Source: a virus
IMG/VR virus record: IMGVR_UViG_3300036851_000526
Coordinates: 1-33,871 of that record
Strand: one strand, 5' to 3'
DNA: 33,871 nt
The translations under genes were made by a program, and so were the position numbers. This document shows, piece by piece, positions 17,876-26,266 of the stretch. The notes under the pieces were generated by a model. It did not search any database. It had not been told where the DNA came from and saw only the letters and a program-made list of their open reading frames with translations. How positions within the stretch are numbered: the first letter of the stretch is position 1; every line of letters begins with the position of its first letter.

Positions 17876-18619
17876 ATGGCTGACGCCACCGCCCGCGGCT
17901 GGGGAGCCGGCTGGCCCACTGACCGCCGCCGCGACATGACCCGGGCCAGCGCCGGTGACGTCACCGTCCTCGTCCACAAGGAGATCGCCGAGCTCGTCAG
18001 TTGGCTGCTCGCCGAAACCGAACGGCACGGCTACGACCTCAGGGCCGGCCAATGCTGGGGGTACGCCAACCGGGCTATCGCCGGCACCAAGCGGCCGTCG
18101 AACCACTCTTGGGGCCTCGCCGTTGACCTCAACGCCCCGTCGAACCCGCAGTCCCGCGATCTCATCACCGACATGCCCGCCTGGTTGCCGGGGCTGTGGA
18201 AGGCGTGGGGCTTCGGGTGGGGCGGCGACTACCAGGGACTCAAAGATCCGATGCACATGGAGTTCATGGGCAGCCCCGACACCGCCCGGGAACTGACGGC
18301 ACGTATTGGTGACGAGCGATCAGTCCCTGTGCCGACATCACCCCCGACCGTCACTGATTTTCCTGCTGGGGAGGACCGCATGATGCGCTACGACCTGCAG
18401 ATCACCTTGGACGACAAGGGCAACGGGTGGGCCCGGGTCGATGTCCCCGCCGGCCACGTCGTCTCGCTGGTTGCCCACGGCCCCTATCCGCCCAGCGACA
18501 ACTACTGGCAGCTACCCGCGCTGGGCCGGCAGGACCGCGACGGCGACACCGTCGTCACCGCCACCGAAGGCCCGCCGGGTGGGACGGTCAACGTCACCAT
18601 GTGGGCCCTTGACCAATGA
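17876..18619 (+). CDS. Endolysin, M15 peptidase (VanY-like)
   Basis: A 247-residue zinc peptidase that probably cleaves peptidoglycan stem peptides at lysis. The metal site is complete: SNHSWGLAVDL provides His77 and Asp84, and PMHMEF provides His127, matching the SxHxxGxAxD and HxEF motifs. Residues 155-247 form a separate beta domain (MRYDLQITLDDKGNGWARVDVPAGHVVSLVAHGP) that may bind the cell wall. There is no signal peptide, so release should need the holin encoded downstream. It lies 18 bases after the tail gene. Confidence 0.88.
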   Translation: MADATARGWGAGWPTDRRRDMTRASAGDVTVLVHKEIAELVSWLLAETERHGYDLRAGQCWGYANRAIAGTKRPSNHSWGLAVDLNAPSNPQSRDLITDMPAWLPGLWKAWGFGWGGDYQGLKDPMHMEFMGSPDTARELTARIGDERSVPVPTSPPTVTDFPAGEDRMMRYDLQITLDDKGNGWARVDVPAGHVVSLVAHGPYPPSDNYWQLPALGRQDRDGDTVVTATEGPPGGTVNVTMWALDQ

Positions 18620-18623
18620 CCTG

Positions 18624-18938
18624 ATGTGGATCGCCGCGGGGACCGATCCGCTCCTCTTCGCCCAGTACGGCATCCTCGGTGTGGTCGTCATCGGATTCAT
18701 ATCCGGCTGGTTGTGGGCGAAGCCATCGGTGGATCGGCTTCAACGGGACCTCGACGTGGCCATCCAGCGCCTCGACGAACGCAACCGGTTCGACCGAGAA
18801 GTGGTCGTCCCCGCCATCACCTCCAACTCAGACCAACTCGAAGAAGTGGTGGAGGTCATCAAGGCCAACGCCGACGTGATGAAGCGCTGCACCGATCACA
18901 TGGACAAGGAGGATCGTCGCCGTCGGAGCACCCCGTGA
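18624..18938 (+). CDS. Membrane protein with coiled-coil tail
   Basis: A 104-residue protein with one N-terminal membrane segment (YGILGVVVIGFISGWLW) and a charged coiled-coil region (RLQRDLDVAIQRLDERN, then QLEEVVEVIKANADVM) facing presumably the cytoplasm. It may be a holin accessory or antiholin, as its position directly after the endolysin suggests, but no family was recognised. ATG 18624 was chosen; an alternative TTG 18609 would overlap the endolysin stop. Confidence 0.65.
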   Translation: MWIAAGTDPLLFAQYGILGVVVIGFISGWLWAKPSVDRLQRDLDVAIQRLDERNRFDREVVVPAITSNSDQLEEVVEVIKANADVMKRCTDHMDKEDRRRRSTP

Positions 18939-19108
18939 CATGGCGACCAGCCTGGCTGGATCGGCGCCGGGCCCAGCGGGTCGAACTCGCCATCCGCCTC
19001 GAGGAGTCGAACCAGACCCTCTACGAGTTGGCCGATGTGATCTTGAAACTGCGGGCTGTCACCGAGAACGTGGAGGACACTCTGGCCAGGATGAAGGACG
19101 AACAGTGA
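18935..19108 (+). CDS. Small coiled-coil protein
   Basis: A 57-residue protein starting at GTG 18935, overlapping the previous stop, and itself overlapped by the receiver gene start (GTGA). It opens with TWRPAWLDRRRAQRVELAIRL and continues with helical heptads (EESNQTLYELADVILKLRAV, TENVEDTLARMKDEQ). It could pair with the coiled coil of the preceding membrane protein. No known function is evident. Confidence 0.58.
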   Translation: MTWRPAWLDRRRAQRVELAIRLEESNQTLYELADVILKLRAVTENVEDTLARMKDEQ

Positions 19109-19497
19109 GGGTGGTCGTTATCGAAGATCACATCATGACGGCCAATCTCTACGGGTTCCTGCTCGGGGAACGGGGCCATGAGGTGGAGGTGATCACCGAC
19201 GGGTTTGAGCGGCTCATCTCCGCCCGCTGGCCCTGGGACGAAATCGACGTGGCCGTCGTCGATCTGCGCCTCCCACCCGGCATCCAGGGGGAGGTCATCA
19301 TCGGCTGGCTGGCCACCCACCACCCCCGTGTGCGGACGGTGGCGGTGACGGGTTACGAGCAGCGGGGCAGCCAGGCGTCGGTGCTGCTGGTCAAGCCGGT
19401 CACGGCGGAGGAGTTCGTTGACACGGTGGAATCCCCGCCCGCCTCGGGACAGAGCCAAGCCAGCCCGCGCCCGATGGCGGGCGGGGAGGGGACATGA
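19105..19497 (+). CDS. Stand-alone response-regulator receiver (CheY-like)
   Basis: A 130-residue receiver domain with no output domain. The conserved sites are all present: the acidic pair Glu7-Asp8 in VVVIEDH, the phospho-acceptor Asp53 in VVDLRLP, Thr82 in VAVTGY, and Lys97-Pro98 in LLVKPV. The fold order beta-alpha is intact to about residue 110, followed by a Ser/Pro-rich tail. GTG 19105 overlaps the stop of the preceding gene. No histidine kinase is encoded nearby, so it would take its phosphate from a host kinase or work unphosphorylated. Its place among lysis genes is unexpected. Confidence 0.85.
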   Translation: MRVVVIEDHIMTANLYGFLLGERGHEVEVITDGFERLISARWPWDEIDVAVVDLRLPPGIQGEVIIGWLATHHPRVRTVAVTGYEQRGSQASVLLVKPVTAEEFVDTVESPPASGQSQASPRPMAGGEGT

Positions 19498-19874
19498 CCG
19501 ACCATCCGGGCCCGCCCGACGGGATGGAACGCCGCCGGGAACGCCAGACCGATCTCGCCCAGGCGATGGCCGACGTCGTCGAGCTCCAGGAGAGCGTGAC
19601 CACCCTGGCGGGGGCGGTGAGCAAGATCATCCCCGAGCAGGTCGGCTTGGGCGTCGACGCCATCAAGGTGCTGTTGACCAAGTTTGCCATCATGCTCGGC
19701 GTCTTCTTCGTGCTGCTCATGATCGCCAACCAGCTGTTCGTGGCCCACATCGTCAGCGAGGGCCACGAGGACCGGAACCAGATCATCGACGTGAACACCT
19801 GCATCCACGCCAAGGCGGCGGCCGGCACCGCCTTCGACGACGCCCAGATCGCCTGTGAGGAGCAGTACCGATAG
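19494..19874 (+). CDS. Single-pass membrane protein of lysis region
   Basis: A 126-residue protein. A charged N-terminal helix region (MERRRERQTDLAQAMADVVELQESVTTL) leads to one strong membrane segment (FAIMLGVFFVLLMIANQLFV). A soluble tail with two Cys residues follows (DVNTCIHAKAAAG, IACEEQYR). By charge the N-terminus should lie inside and the Cys-containing tail outside. It overlaps the receiver gene (ATGA) and precedes the holin. It could be a lysis accessory protein; no family was recognised. Confidence 0.65.
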   Translation: MTDHPGPPDGMERRRERQTDLAQAMADVVELQESVTTLAGAVSKIIPEQVGLGVDAIKVLLTKFAIMLGVFFVLLMIANQLFVAHIVSEGHEDRNQIIDVNTCIHAKAAAGTAFDDAQIACEEQYR

Positions 19875-19882
19875 GAGATGCG

Positions 19883-20239
19883 ATGAGCCCAGCGTGGTCG
19901 CGTGGGTTGAAGAAGGGCGCGCGTACGGTTTTCCAGCTGGCCGCCGGGGGGGCGCTCACGGCCGCTGTAAACGTTCTGGCCGACGGGTTGGCCTCCAACA
20001 CCAAGGTGCTGGTTCTGACGGCGTGGACGGCTCTTGTGGCCGTCCTCCAGAACAGCCTGGAGGCTTCGGGAAAGGTGCCGGTGCTGTTGCCGTCGCCGGC
20101 GCTGGTCACCGACGCCCCGGGAAAGATCGTGGGCCGGGCCGGTGCCGTCGTGGAGATGGGGGTAGATCAAACAGGGGACCTCGTGGGAGAGGTCACCGAT
20201 GTGGTTGGGGACGTACTGGGGAACGGAGACCACGCATGA
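19883..20239 (+). CDS. Holin
   Basis: A 118-residue protein with the pattern of actinophage holins. A basic N-terminus (WSRGLKKGARTVFQL) is followed by two hydrophobic segments (AAGGALTAAVNVLADGL and VLVLTAWTALVAVLQNSLE). The motif PVLLPSPALVTDAPGK follows the second segment and is characteristic of the group. The acidic tail (EMGVDQTGDLVGEVTDVVG) is soluble. It would permeabilise the membrane to release the M15 endolysin. ATG 19883 follows AGGAGAT. Confidence 0.8.
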   Translation: MSPAWSRGLKKGARTVFQLAAGGALTAAVNVLADGLASNTKVLVLTAWTALVAVLQNSLEASGKVPVLLPSPALVTDAPGKIVGRAGAVVEMGVDQTGDLVGEVTDVVGDVLGNGDHA

Positions 20240-20616
20240 GAAGACTCCTGCTGGGGTTGACGATCATTACCGCGAGCCTGTTAGGACCACCCGTCTACGC
20301 CGACAACGGGCAGCGTTGCAACGAGCAGGGCCGCTGCTATCACGAGAATCCCGCCCCTGACGAATGCCGCAAGGACTGCGGCGACCAAGAGGAAGGCGGA
20401 AAGAAGGAAAAGTGCGTCGGCTGGATCGCCATCTGCGGCAACAAGTTCCCTGACCTGCCTGGTCAGCCTGCGCAGCCCGCGTCTCTCTTCCCTCCCAATC
20501 CCGCAAAGATCGGCGAGTACATCGGCGCCGGCTTTCAAATCGGCCTCGACTTCGCCAAGGCCCTCACCGACGTGATCGTCACCTTCATTGGTTCGATCGG
20601 CAAGTTCCTCGCCTGA
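20236..20616 (+). CDS. Secreted Cys-rich protein with C-terminal membrane segment
   Basis: A 126-residue protein with a signal peptide (MRRLLLGLTIITASLLGPPV, then YA-DN, probable cleavage after about residue 22). The exported region contains seven cysteines (CNEQGRCYHE, ECRKDCGDQ, KCVGWIAICG), a Pro-rich linker, and a C-terminal hydrophobic stretch (FAKALTDVIVTFIGSIGKFLA). The layout suits an envelope-located protein with disulfides. It may act in lysis or superinfection exclusion; neither is shown. The ATG overlaps the holin stop. Confidence 0.65.
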   Translation: MRRLLLGLTIITASLLGPPVYADNGQRCNEQGRCYHENPAPDECRKDCGDQEEGGKKEKCVGWIAICGNKFPDLPGQPAQPASLFPPNPAKIGEYIGAGFQIGLDFAKALTDVIVTFIGSIGKFLA

Positions 20617-20627
20617 GAAGGGAGGAG

Positions 20628-20945
20628 ACGACGTACCAGTACCGCGCCGTCGTCCTCAAGGTCGTTGACGGCGACACCGTCCACTTAGACGTCGAGCTGG
20701 GATTCGACATCAAACGCCGCGACAGCTTCCGGCTCTACGGCATCAACGCCTCCGAGATGAGCACCCCCGAGGGCGTGGCGGCCCGAGAGTGGCTCGTCGG
20801 CCGCCTGGAGCACGGCGCCCTCATCATCACCACCCATAAGGACCAGCGGGAGAAGTACGGCCGCTACCTAGCCACCTTGTGGATCGACAACGTCAACCTG
20901 AACGAGGCGATGGTCGAAGCAGGCCACGCCGTGGTCTATCCGTAG
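20628..20945 (+). CDS. Staphylococcal-nuclease-like protein, non-ATG start
   Basis: A 105-residue thermonuclease-fold protein. Conserved elements are KVVDGDT (Asp14, Asp16), FRLYGIN (Arg35), SEM (Glu43) and EKYGRYLATLW (Arg79), matching the metal and catalytic residues of the family. The first ordinary ATG (20757) would remove the DGDT motif and the catalytic Arg/Glu, so translation must begin upstream. ACG 20628, shortly after GGGAGGAG, would give M-T-Y-Q-Y-R-A, an ordinary N-terminus. No signal peptide is visible. It may degrade nucleic acid in the host cytoplasm or act in DNA maintenance. Confidence 0.75.
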   Translation, partial: TTYQYRAVVLKVVDGDTVHLDVELGFDIKRRDSFRLYGINASEMSTPEGVAAREWLVGRLEHGALIITTHKDQREKYGRYLATLWIDNVNLNEAMVEAGHAVVYP

Positions 20946-21665: not shown

Positions 21666-22844
21666 CTAGCTGCAGTTCTGTACGCAGACATCTTGACCGA
21701 CGCTCAGATTCCAAGAGGTGTCATCGTTGATGCTGAATTCCCGGATCTGGATGTAGTGGCGACCATTGACTCTGGGGTGGAGAGTGAGGACGCCGCTCTG
21801 ACCGGGGTTGGCGCTGACGTAGTCGAGGATGGTGCCGGTGTCGTATTCGTAGACGGCGAAGTTGCATCCGGCGGAGTAGTCCGATGCCTGACCGCAGTGC
21901 CACTGCATCGTCGTCGTCGTCGCCACCAGTTGGAACGGTTGTGAATCGGTGCTCCCCGTCCCTGCGGTGTCAAAGATCGTCCGCGACTGGTAGACCGGCG
22001 GAGGGGGCGGGTTCCCAATGGCGGCGATAGAGACGACCGGGTGCGCCGGCGGATTGTTGCCGAGGGACCCGTAGAAGGGCACGTCCCCGAAGGTGAAGAC
22101 ACCGCCGTCCTCGGCCACCATCAGGTAGCCGCCGCCGGTGGGGCTGGCCACCATTCCTGAGATCGGCTTGTTGAGGCGGAGGTTCCCGGTGGAGCCATGG
22201 AAGGGCGCCTCGAAGGTGAAGATGCCGCCGTCGGAGGCGACCAGCCAGTAGCCCACCCCGTCAGGGTCGGGGGCGAGGGACATGACCGGCTTGTTGAGCT
22301 TCTTGTTGCCCGTCGAGCCGTAAAACTTGGCGTCGCCGAAGGTGAAGACCCCGCCATCAGAGCCGACCATGTAGTAACCCTGCCCGGTCGGGGTGGCCAC
22401 GGCGTCGAGGACGGGCCCGTTGAGCGGGGTGCCGGCCAGGTCGCCGAAATGCTGGGCGTCGCCGAAACGGAACACACGGCCCTTGCTGGTGAACAACCAG
22501 TAGCCCTTGCCGGTGGGCGTGGCCGCCATGGTGGTGTAGTCCTCGTCAAAGGGGACGCTTGGGGCGATGCCGAAGTAGCCGGCGTCGCCGTAGTTGTAGA
22601 CAGACCCGGCGGCGCTGAGGACCCAGTAGCCGTTTCCGGATGGCGTGGGGGTGATCTTGACCCGGCCGGGGATGGAGAAGGGCGAGCCGAGCTGCTCGGC
22701 GCCGCCGAAGGCGTAGACCTGGCCGTCGGCGGTGAGCATCCAGTAGCCGGGGCTGGCGTGCGCGGCGTGGGCGGCGGGCGGGGAGATGAAAAGGACGCTG
22801 GCCGCGAGCGCGGCGGCCAGGAACATTCTGCGTACGATCTTCAT
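21666..22844 (-). CDS. Secreted beta-propeller protein, likely lysogenic cargo
   Basis: A 392-residue exported protein. The signal peptide is MKIVRRMFLAAALAASVLF, with cleavage near AHA-AHA (about residue 28). Six propeller-type repeats of about 41 residues follow, each with GYW-x(3-5)-DGGVFTFGDAxFYGS and a closing PTPTG-like turn. After a PPPPP linker, a C-terminal beta domain of about 110 residues contains four Cys (HCGQ, GCNF, VCVQNC). These GYW/DGG/FGDA repeats are very common in Acidimicrobiia proteins. AGGAGAG precedes the ATG. It lies on the opposite strand from all phage structural genes, next to attP, typical of a cargo gene expressed from the prophage. Confidence 0.82.
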   Translation of the reverse strand: MKIVRRMFLAAALAASVLFISPPAAHAAHASPGYWMLTADGQVYAFGGAEQLGSPFSIPGRVKITPTPSGNGYWVLSAAGSVYNYGDAGYFGIAPSVPFDEDYTTMAATPTGKGYWLFTSKGRVFRFGDAQHFGDLAGTPLNGPVLDAVATPTGQGYYMVGSDGGVFTFGDAKFYGSTGNKKLNKPVMSLAPDPDGVGYWLVASDGGIFTFEAPFHGSTGNLRLNKPISGMVASPTGGGYLMVAEDGGVFTFGDVPFYGSLGNNPPAHPVVSIAAIGNPPPPPVYQSRTIFDTAGTGSTDSQPFQLVATTTTMQWHCGQASDYSAGCNFAVYEYDTGTILDYVSANPGQSGVLTLHPRVNGRHYIQIREFSINDDTSWNLSVGQDVCVQNCS

Positions 22845-23003: not shown

Positions 23004-23094
23004 ATCTTGCGCGTCGCCGCAGGTCAGAGTCTGCCGCTGTGGCCTTTGGTGGCGGCGAATTCCGGCGAATTCCCGTAGGAACGGGTGGGGTCCT

Positions 23095-23144
23095 CGACCT
23101 TGCCAAGGTTGGGGTCGCGGGTTCGAATCCCGTCGTCCGCTCCA
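23095..23144 (+). other. attP core: 3' part of tRNA-Gly(GCC)
   Basis: Fifty bases match the 3' part of a tRNA. Anticodon stem CGACC/GGTTG encloses loop TTGCCAA (anticodon GCC, glycine). A variable loop, the T-arm GCGGG-TTCGAAT-CCCGT, the acceptor strand CGTCCGC, a discriminator T and CCA follow. The 5' half (acceptor GCGGACG and D-arm) is missing upstream, so this is not a functional tRNA gene. It fits the attachment core of a phage that integrates at tRNA-Gly and restores its 3' end. No other copy is seen in the window. Confidence 0.85.
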
Positions 23145-23501: not shown

Positions 23502-24287
23502 ATGGAAGCCACCGGCCCCTACCAGCTGCTCCCTCCGCTCACTGCCGATGAGTACGACGCACTCAAGGCTGACATCCAGCGTCACGGCATCCGGGAGCCC
23601 ATCGAATACGACACCGACGGCAATGTCCTCGACGGCCACCACCGCCTCCGTATCGCCGAAGAGCTCGGTCTCACCCAGTTCGACACCCGCTTCCTGCCCT
23701 TCAAGAACGAACGCGAGAAGCGCGAGCACGTCTTGGCCGTCAATCTGCTGCGGCGGCATCTGACGCCCAAACAGAAGCGAGAGATCGCCGCCAAACTGCT
23801 GAAAGAGAATGCCAAGCGGAGCGACCGAGATGTCGCTCGGCTTGTTGGTATCGACCACAAGACAGTCGCCGACGTGCGCACCCAAGCTGAGTCGCGTGGG
23901 GAACTTCCCCACGTCGCCACCCGAGTCGATTCGAAGGGTCGTCAGCAGCCAGCTCAGAAGCCGAAGAAGCGGGCAACGGCGCCGGAGGACACGAGCCAGC
24001 CGAACTCGCCCGCTCCCGTGATGCAGCCGGCGTTGGTTGTTCAAGCCGCGAAACCAACCAACGGAGCGGCACCGACGGTGGCGCCTTCACCTCTGCCCCT
24101 TGAGGCCACCCGTGAGGAACGCGCCGAGGCCACCGCCTTTGCCAAGGAGCTCTCCGTTGTCCTCGAGCGGGCCATGGCGCGCCGCCCCGACGTGTTCATC
24201 CAACTCGCCAGCCCAAAGACGCGAGACCAGCTTCTCGCCCAGCTTCACAGTTTCAGTAGGTGGGCGGCGGCTGCCGCCGCCGTCTAA
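23502..24287 (+). CDS. ParB-like DNA-binding protein
   Basis: A 261-residue protein with a ParB/Srx-type N-terminal domain: LTADEYDALKADIQRHGIREPI and DGNVLDGHHRLRIAEELGL, where DGHHR corresponds to the ParB nucleotide-binding box. Residues 85-125 contain a helix-turn-helix (KRSDRDVARLVGIDHKTVADV). A Pro/Ala-rich linker (residues 145-205) and a helical C-terminus follow. Proteins of this type are common in actinobacterial mobile elements and act as regulators or partition-like factors. The gene is first in the operon with the GHKL ATPase, 14 bases apart. Confidence 0.8.
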   Translation: MEATGPYQLLPPLTADEYDALKADIQRHGIREPIEYDTDGNVLDGHHRLRIAEELGLTQFDTRFLPFKNEREKREHVLAVNLLRRHLTPKQKREIAAKLLKENAKRSDRDVARLVGIDHKTVADVRTQAESRGELPHVATRVDSKGRQQPAQKPKKRATAPEDTSQPNSPAPVMQPALVVQAAKPTNGAAPTVAPSPLPLEATREERAEATAFAKELSVVLERAMARRPDVFIQLASPKTRDQLLAQLHSFSRWAAAAAAV

Positions 24288-24301
24288 GAAAGGAAACACC
24301 C

Positions 24302-26266
24302 GTGCTTCTCATTGACCCCAACGCCAGGCGCCGTGCCTATGAACGGCCCGACCTTCACATGGAGACGATGGGAATAGTCGACAACGGCGTCCTGATCGAC
24401 CGGACCTACCGCCATGCCGCCCCAGGCCAATGGGTCCGGGAACTCGCCATCAACGGCATCGAGGCCGGCGCCACCAGGATTCACTTCGGTGTCGACTGGG
24501 GCCATGTTGACGAGTGCGTCGCCCGCGGTGAACGACCTGCGTACCGTCTTCTGTACCAGGACAATGGTTCGGGTATGGAACCGACTGAGGAGTTGATCCA
24601 CTACTTCAACAACCTGAGCGCGAGCTCCAAGGCGATGGGTGAGCACGGGAACTTCGGGATGGGCGTCAGGGTGACGATGCTCCCGTGGAACGGGCACGGC
24701 CTAGCTGTCATGTCATGGCAGGACAGCGACGGCGGGATGATCGTCCTCGGAGGAGACAAGAACGGTAACTACGGCGTCGTCAAGCAGCGCGCGGTCGACA
24801 TCTACGGCATCGAAGCCGACATCAACGTCGTGGAACCACCCCGTCAGTATCAGCCGCTGGAAGGCGGGACCGGGGTGAACCTCGTTGCCATGGGCAGGAC
24901 GGGGAGAGAGAACACCTTCTTTGGTCCGCCGGAGGATCAGCGACTGCGGGCCTATCTGTGGGCGCTCCAGCGCCGGCTCTTCGAAATTCCCGAGAGCATC
25001 GAAATCACCTGCGATGAGCTCCCGTCGATGGATGTGGACTCTTGGCCGGACGGTGATGCTCGGCGCAGTGACCGTGGGGTATCAACGAGGCGCCGGATCA
25101 CAACCATGGCGAGTCTTCTCGAGAAGTTGACACCCGTTGGTCACAGCGGGTCGGTGCCGTTGTCCGACGCGGAGGTGTACTGGTGGCTCTTGCCGCCCGC
25201 CGAGCGTCGGCCACGAAGCAGCGCATCCGGGGTCTTCGCCTACATGGGATTGGTGGCCACCCTGTACGAGGACGAGCGGATCGGCGTCAAGGAGGTGTAC
25301 GACCTCATCGACAATGCCAGTCTCCTCAGCCAGCATGCCGCTCGATTCAAAATGTTCGGGGTTCCGTTCACCAAGGTTCAGCAGCGCCTCGTCCTTCTCG
25401 TCCAGGCTCGCAAGGCCATCCGCCAGGCGGCCATCGCGGGTGTCGAGCCCGATCCGAGCAGGCGCGGACTCGTCTACAGCGACGGACCGCACGTGACGGA
25501 ACTGCCTTGGAACCGATGGGGTGAGGAGTTCAAGGCGGCGATGCCCGCGGTGGTAGTGGCGGCGCTCAACGAACAGTACGCGCGACTCGAAGCCGCCGAC
25601 CCGACGGAACGCGTCAAGCCGTACCTCGACCGCATGCGCCAACCCGTGCTGCGGCGTTCACTGAACGGTAAGCACCGTGCCGCCCTCGACGACTTCAACC
25701 TCGAAGGAGGGCAGACGGGGACACAGGAGCCGACGACGGTTGGCGCGCCGCCAAGCGGTAACCAAGGGAACGCCGGCGGCACCGCTGGTCATGATGTCAC
25801 CCGTATTGAGCGGCCTCGGGCGAAAATCAAGACCGCGGCCGTGAATCCGAGGACCAACCTGCCGAAGGTCCTGTGGATCTACGGTACGAACGACGTGTCG
25901 ATCAATCCTGGGGCGGCCGCAACCTACGACGTCGTCAACCATGCGGTGTACGTGGACGGCAACTACGACGTCTTTTCCGAAGTCCGCGACTACTACCTGT
26001 CGCACTACGACACGCCCGGTGTCGAGGTGACCGTGAAGAACGCTGTCGAGACCGTCTACGGGGCGAAGTTCGCCGCTCGCATCTTCCACGCCTGGGCCAA
26101 GAAAGGCTCGGCGGGCTGGAGTCAGGACTTCTTCGAGCTCGTCTTGTCCGACGGTGGCATGACCGGATGGGTCCTCGGTCTCGAGGACGCCGATGAATCG
26201 ATCCGCCGGATCGTCACCGGGCGGCACGGTGCACTCAAGAAGCCGACCTTGGCGAAGTCCGCTTAG
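24302..26266 (+). CDS. GHKL-type ATPase (Hsp90/MutL-like N-terminal fold)
   Basis: A 654-residue protein with a Bergerat ATP-binding fold in the first 200 residues. Motifs are the N-box WVRELAINGIEAGA, the G1 box YQDNGSGM and the lid glycines GEHGNFGMGVRV. The rest has no recognised domain. Residues 480-515 form a Gly/Thr-rich linker, and the last 110 residues are a compact alpha/beta region. No histidine-kinase dimerisation box is present, so it is more like a MORC/MutL or defence-type ATPase. The start is GTG 24302 behind AAAGGA. It is cotranscribed with ParB-like, excisionase and integrase genes. Confidence 0.75.
   Translation: MLLIDPNARRRAYERPDLHMETMGIVDNGVLIDRTYRHAAPGQWVRELAINGIEAGATRIHFGVDWGHVDECVARGERPAYRLLYQDNGSGMEPTEELIHYFNNLSASSKAMGEHGNFGMGVRVTMLPWNGHGLAVMSWQDSDGGMIVLGGDKNGNYGVVKQRAVDIYGIEADINVVEPPRQYQPLEGGTGVNLVAMGRTGRENTFFGPPEDQRLRAYLWALQRRLFEIPESIEITCDELPSMDVDSWPDGDARRSDRGVSTRRRITTMASLLEKLTPVGHSGSVPLSDAEVYWWLLPPAERRPRSSASGVFAYMGLVATLYEDERIGVKEVYDLIDNASLLSQHAARFKMFGVPFTKVQQRLVLLVQARKAIRQAAIAGVEPDPSRRGLVYSDGPHVTELPWNRWGEEFKAAMPAVVVAALNEQYARLEAADPTERVKPYLDRMRQPVLRRSLNGKHRAALDDFNLEGGQTGTQEPTTVGAPPSGNQGNAGGTAGHDVTRIERPRAKIKTAAVNPRTNLPKVLWIYGTNDVSINPGAAATYDVVNHAVYVDGNYDVFSEVRDYYLSHYDTPGVEVTVKNAVETVYGAKFAARIFHAWAKKGSAGWSQDFFELVLSDGGMTGWVLGLEDADESIRRIVTGRHGALKKPTLAKSA

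Follow-up and report, generated by a model that had tools for sequence, protein, structure and literature searches.

The virus record IMGVR_UViG_3300036851_000526 was analysed over its full length of 33,871 bases, which we refer to as the window. Terminase, capsid, tail, endolysin, integrase, repressor-like and RecT genes are all present in it, and the nearest relatives of its capsid protein are those of phages of Gordonia, Rhodococcus and Mycobacterium (31-37% identity). The virus is actinophage-like and temperate. Downstream of its endolysin lies a gene encoding a response-regulator receiver, surrounded by the following features:

17876-18619, plus strand: endolysin, peptidase M15_4 of the D-Ala-D-Ala carboxypeptidase type (PF13539, E = 1.8e-12; PHROG endolysins)
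18624-18938, plus strand: TM-coil membrane protein, an N-terminal transmembrane segment (residues 10-28) followed by a coiled coil (transmembrane call; relatives in L007, L011-L013, L076-L078)
18935-19108, plus strand: small soluble coiled-coil protein of 57 residues, GTG start (GTGA overlap with the preceding gene; coding LLR 0.243)
19094-19098, plus strand: AAGGA ribosome-binding site, 6 nt 5' of the receiver GTG at 19105 (sequence)
19105-19497, plus strand: stand-alone response-regulator receiver, 130 residues (PF00072, E = 8.2e-8; GTGA and ATGA overlaps)
19123-19128, plus strand: acidic pair E7-D8 of the receiver (translation, alignment)
19261-19263, plus strand: D53, the predicted phosphoacceptor (translation, alignment)
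19348-19395, plus strand: T82-G83-Y84 to K97, the beta4-beta5 linker with a T-K spacing of 15 and helix alpha4 missing (alignment, both structure models)
19494-19874, plus strand: membrane protein with an N-terminal coil, a long hydrophobic segment and Cys in the C-terminal part (ATGA overlap; hydropathy)
19883-20239, plus strand: moderately hydrophobic protein without a family match, possible holin
20236-20616, plus strand: putative secreted protein with a signal-peptide-like N-terminus and no significant family match

The receiver gene is embedded in a late operon

The open reading frame at 19105-19497 (+) translates into 130 residues from a GTG start. Its codon log-odds of 0.225 compare with -0.62 and -0.52 in the other two plus-strand frames, and its third-position GC is 0.86. 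We rejected a longer protein starting at the in-frame ATG 18940, since the upstream stretch carries no coding signal in the receiver frame and a ribosome-binding AAGGA (19094-19098) stands ahead of the GTG at 19105. Translation reproduces the frame, the coordinates and the five key residues (E7, D8, D53, T82 and K97) of the original prediction, which had been made from the sequence alone.

The receiver gene shares four bases with each of its neighbours: GTGA at its start, with the stop codon of the 57-residue coil gene, and ATGA at its end, with the start codon of the gene at 19494. On its own strand, no promoter-like or terminator-like site was found near the gene. Overlaps on both sides and the lack of a nearby promoter-like site indicate expression together with the lysis genes, and the receiver gene is operonic, translated within the late/lysis operon. 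It does lie between membrane and coiled-coil genes as originally described, and the proposed lysis-region location, downstream of the endolysin, is supported. We could not establish the further claim that the holin gene comes next: the product of the gene at 19494 has one long hydrophobic stretch and that of the gene at 19883 is no more than moderately hydrophobic, with no holin-family match for either.

Other features of the record accompany this region. An SNase-like nuclease frame at 20622-20945 (+; PF00565, E = 1.3e-9), also in the lysis region, lacks any ATG, GTG or TTG ahead of its domain. Behind a GGAGG-like site stands an ACG at 20631, so the frame may begin at a non-standard codon or contain an error in the sequence. 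The inverted gene at 21666-22844 (-) encodes GYWMLTADGQVYAFGGA-type repeats after a signal-peptide-like start. A gene of this kind is typical of Acidimicrobiia and may be a clue to the host. A tRNA-Glu (CTC) at 23065-23144 (+) lies between the inverted gene and a gene for a ParB-like protein (23502-24287), and read antisense it yields the well-known spurious peptide TGFEPATPT. The ParB-like protein is directly followed by a 668-residue protein (24260-26266, +) with GHKL ATPase motifs, which matches HATPase_c_3 below the cut-off (E = 7.9e-5) and has no PHROG match.

The receiver keeps its acceptor site and lacks helix alpha4

Residues 3-106 of the protein match PF00072 (Response_reg) with 32.8 bits against a curated cut-off of 30.2 (E = 8.2e-8). 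This is the sole receiver in the virus record, where no second PF00072 match was found. No output domain follows: the protein ends about 20 residues past the receiver, Pfam finds no second family in it, and the tail beyond about residue 110 is disordered-looking. The protein therefore lacks the output domain of full-length response regulators (OmpR, NarL). In an alignment with 38 further receivers from three plasmid records of alphaproteobacteria, its residues E7, D8, D53, T82 and K97 fall on their acidic pair, phosphoacceptor, Thr/Ser and Lys. The match above the Pfam cut-off and the intact active-site residues bear out the receiver identity proposed earlier.

The same alignment reveals an unusual linker. 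The distance between T82 and K97 is 15 residues, compared with 22 in 28 of the 38 other receivers; spacings of 16-19 occur only in L066, L049, L063 and L064, all four of which have T/S-G after beta4. A spacing of 15 rather than 22 leaves the alpha4-forming linker about seven residues short, so that helix alpha4 is essentially missing. The aromatic switch position on beta5 (K-3) is occupied by Leu94. Of the two hallmarks of a canonical CheY-like receiver, an alpha4 of usual length and an aromatic residue on beta5, the protein has neither, and its description as a complete CheY-like receiver holds for the active site but not for the linker or the beta5 aromatic. Two single-sequence AlphaFold2 models likewise contain no helix at residues 84-99, although both are of low confidence, with pLDDT below 50 there and 62-63 overall. 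Fold searches with both of these models (pLDDT 62-63) returned receivers as nearly all top PDB matches, over residues 1-92 and with Z of at most 9.8. Helix alpha4 and the aromatic switch make up the usual phospho-dependent binding face of receivers.

Likeness to known receivers

No close relative of the phage receiver was found in the viral contigs, genome contigs and named phages that we searched. Among the named phages, a match under the name "Acinetobacter phage MD-2021a" is a bacterial ypdA/ypdB contig filed as phage, the match in Mycobacterium phage Beckerton runs antisense to gene 59, and the other matches are weak (E of at least 5). Judged by its sequence, the protein encoded at 19105-19497 is a real, orphan, alpha4-less stand-alone receiver.

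The nearest solved structures by sequence are DivK, which is the best (E = 2.5e-4), the RpfC receiver, CckA Rec (6tne) and Sma0114 (2lpm). In CckA Rec and Sma0114, alpha4 is flexible or absent, and both carry a FATGUY-type motif (PMC9981736, PMC5898713). The phage receiver has in common with alphaproteobacterial Rec-only receivers of the FATGUY kind (the phosphorelay proteins Sma0114 2lpm and SdrG, and MrrA) that it stands alone and keeps an intact acceptor site, and it further resembles them in the T-G-Y after beta4, the short linker without alpha4 and the non-aromatic beta5 position (PMC9981736, PMC5898713). However, the full PFxFATG[G/Y] motif is reduced to its T-G-Y in the phage protein (R-T-V-A-V-T-G-Y), the linker spans 15 residues versus 19 in the Sma0114-like L063 and L064, and the gene is virus-borne, without a known HWE kinase. 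The phage receiver thus resembles, and may work like, the FATGUY/HWE-associated Rec-only proteins, by analogy with which we describe it without filing it as a member.

Other single-domain receivers offer partial parallels. Two stand-alone receivers from a Bradyrhizobium japonicum plasmid, L049 and L066, are among the best plasmid matches (30% and 24% identity) and have T-K spacings of 18 and 16, but they are bacterial genes and distant from the phage receiver. A Leisingera OmpR-type regulator scores equal to these Bradyrhizobium receivers, which makes placement in a subfamily by similarity weak. The single-domain response regulators DivK and CheY lack an output domain, as the phage receiver does; unlike it, they have a full helix alpha4.

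Comparable phage cassettes manage without the receiver

The pair formed by the TM-coil gene and the small coil gene recurs in MT835568.1 (L007), L011, L012, L076, L077 and L078, and L013 also has a TM-coil gene. None of these seven viral cassettes, some of which come from records that are possibly fragments, contains a receiver (PF00072). The family is also absent from the records L002 (an endolysin relative), L003-L006 (TerL relatives) and L014 (a TM-coil relative). Directly after the coil gene, L078 and, in a looser arrangement, L013 have a coil-membrane-Cys gene whose likeness to the gene at 19494-19874 of the window is one of architecture only; in L078 the start of this gene shows the ATGA start/stop overlap. 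Because seven cassettes are without the receiver and L078 and L013 keep the flanking order, the receiver looks inserted into an existing gene order. The simplest reading of these gene orders is that it was probably added between the coiled-coil gene and the coil-membrane gene.

The TM-coil protein, the small coil protein and the membrane protein with Cys in its C-terminal part recur together, mostly without annotation, as a late-gene module in distant phages (L007, L011-L013, L076-L078). It often stands beside endolysin or holin genes and is a possible lysis module. A second profile scan, of the genome contigs with the TM-coil alignment, gave no match.

Receivers in other phages

An OmpR-type receiver used as the query against 50,697 phage records matched 232 of them, many being short and unannotated or bacterial contigs with phage names. 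The CAKLQH/CAKLQF records under the name Acinetobacter phage MD-2021a (e.g. L009) are bacterial chromosomal contigs and give false phage matches for two-component genes. The view that phage-borne receivers are rare is therefore roughly right, given how many of the "phage" records with canonical receivers are of these kinds, but it has to accommodate published stand-alone cases. Genuine ones are gp30 of Alteromonas phage V22 and gp11 of Alteromonas phage A5 (PMC7289586, PMC10579305). Like the receiver at 19105-19497, these are phage-borne, stand alone and belong to a late-gene region (PMC7289586, PMC10579305). They differ from it in being part of a tail-fibre module and in the phylum of the host, and the spacing across alpha4 is a canonical 22 in V22 gp30 where the present protein has 15. 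The named-phage search with the 19105-19497 protein did not retrieve the V22 and A5 CheY-like proteins.

In the literature we found no paper on a receiver within a phage lysis cassette. To our knowledge, no phage lysis operon contains a phosphorelay receiver. Yersinia RoeA governs a lysis cassette, yet it is a PhoB-like DNA-binding regulator (PMC10101115), and we rejected it as a precedent.

Possible roles of the receiver

We tentatively favor the reading, with a probability of roughly 40%, that this late-expressed, alpha4-less receiver is a phosphoryl sink or an intermediary for a host kinase and not a CheY-type effector. In principle, D53 could be phosphorylated by a histidine kinase of the host or from a small phosphodonor. 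The reduced 4-5-5 output face would suit a sink or intermediary better than a CheY-type effector: the missing helix alpha4 and aromatic switch lend weight to the phosphate-sink idea, and with the acceptor site kept while the output face is reduced, a sink or intermediary is the best-supported guess. No histidine kinase was found in the virus record, where nothing matches HATPase_c, so that the phosphoryl source would be either a kinase of the host or a small phosphodonor. The GHKL ATPase at 24260-26266 was considered as a phage kinase partner and rejected on its sub-threshold HATPase_c_3 match and its lack of a HATPase_c match. Expression alongside the lysis genes suggests late action, and the receiver might, speculatively, blunt an envelope-stress response; its partner is possibly an envelope-stress kinase that is active during the attack on the wall. 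Several points stand against a sink or intermediary of this kind: the searches gave no homologue in which retention of the acceptor site by selection would show, the structure models are of low confidence, a protein made only late would have little time to act, and the record is possibly a fragment, so that a kinase could lie beyond its ends. Confidence is limited by the single orphan sequence.

The main rival makes the receiver a phospho-switch that, in one of its phosphorylation states, would bind the coiled-coil membrane proteins next to it (18624-18938, 18935-19108, 19494-19874) and so couple the triggering of holin and endolysin to two-component signalling of the host. The tight overlap coupling to both neighbours, the location between the endolysin and the putative holin, and the long coil-like segments of the neighbours all speak for it; we nevertheless regard it as rather unlikely, since the protein lacks helix alpha4 as well as the aromatic switch and comparable cassettes manage without a receiver. 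The stronger proposal, that the phage uses its own alpha4-less receiver as a direct phosphorelay input that ties lysis to, or uncouples it from, host envelope-stress two-component signalling, strikes us as doubtful. That relatives' cassettes lack the receiver also fits a chance arrival: accessory cargo that came to lie among the lysis genes, acts on host physiology (surface, stress response) and has no role in lysis. Accessory-looking genes do follow downstream (the SNase homologue at 20622-20945 and the inverted gene at 21666-22844), and Alteromonas phages carry stand-alone CheY-like extras in a late module (PMC10579305). Typical cargo is independently expressed, however, whereas translational coupling on both sides ties this gene into its operon, with no promoter-like or terminator-like site of its own found on its strand, and we consider chance cargo unlikely, a little more so than the phospho-switch.

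Two readings dispense with ordinary receiver signalling. The fold might have been kept as a scaffold for protein binding, with phosphorylation irrelevant, which would agree with the missing alpha4 and the weak similarity to all known receivers. The retention of E7, D8, D53, T82 and K97, which would not be expected under drift, makes this improbable. The divergent cREC domain of jumbo-phage NAD/ADP-ribose systems is a known phage-borne receiver variant (PMC7824862), but the protein at 19105-19497 matches the classical PF00072 model and no NAD/ADP-ribose enzyme occurs among the 19 window proteins scanned, a subset of the open reading frames; we give this identification very little credence.

Phages heed host signals such as quorum sensing for the timing of lysis (PMC10426928). 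Even if the protein at 19105-19497 accepts no phosphoryl group, a virus-borne receiver without its output face is still unusual. If it does accept one, it would offer the phage a small, testable means of reading or damping two-component signals of the host as the cell lyses.
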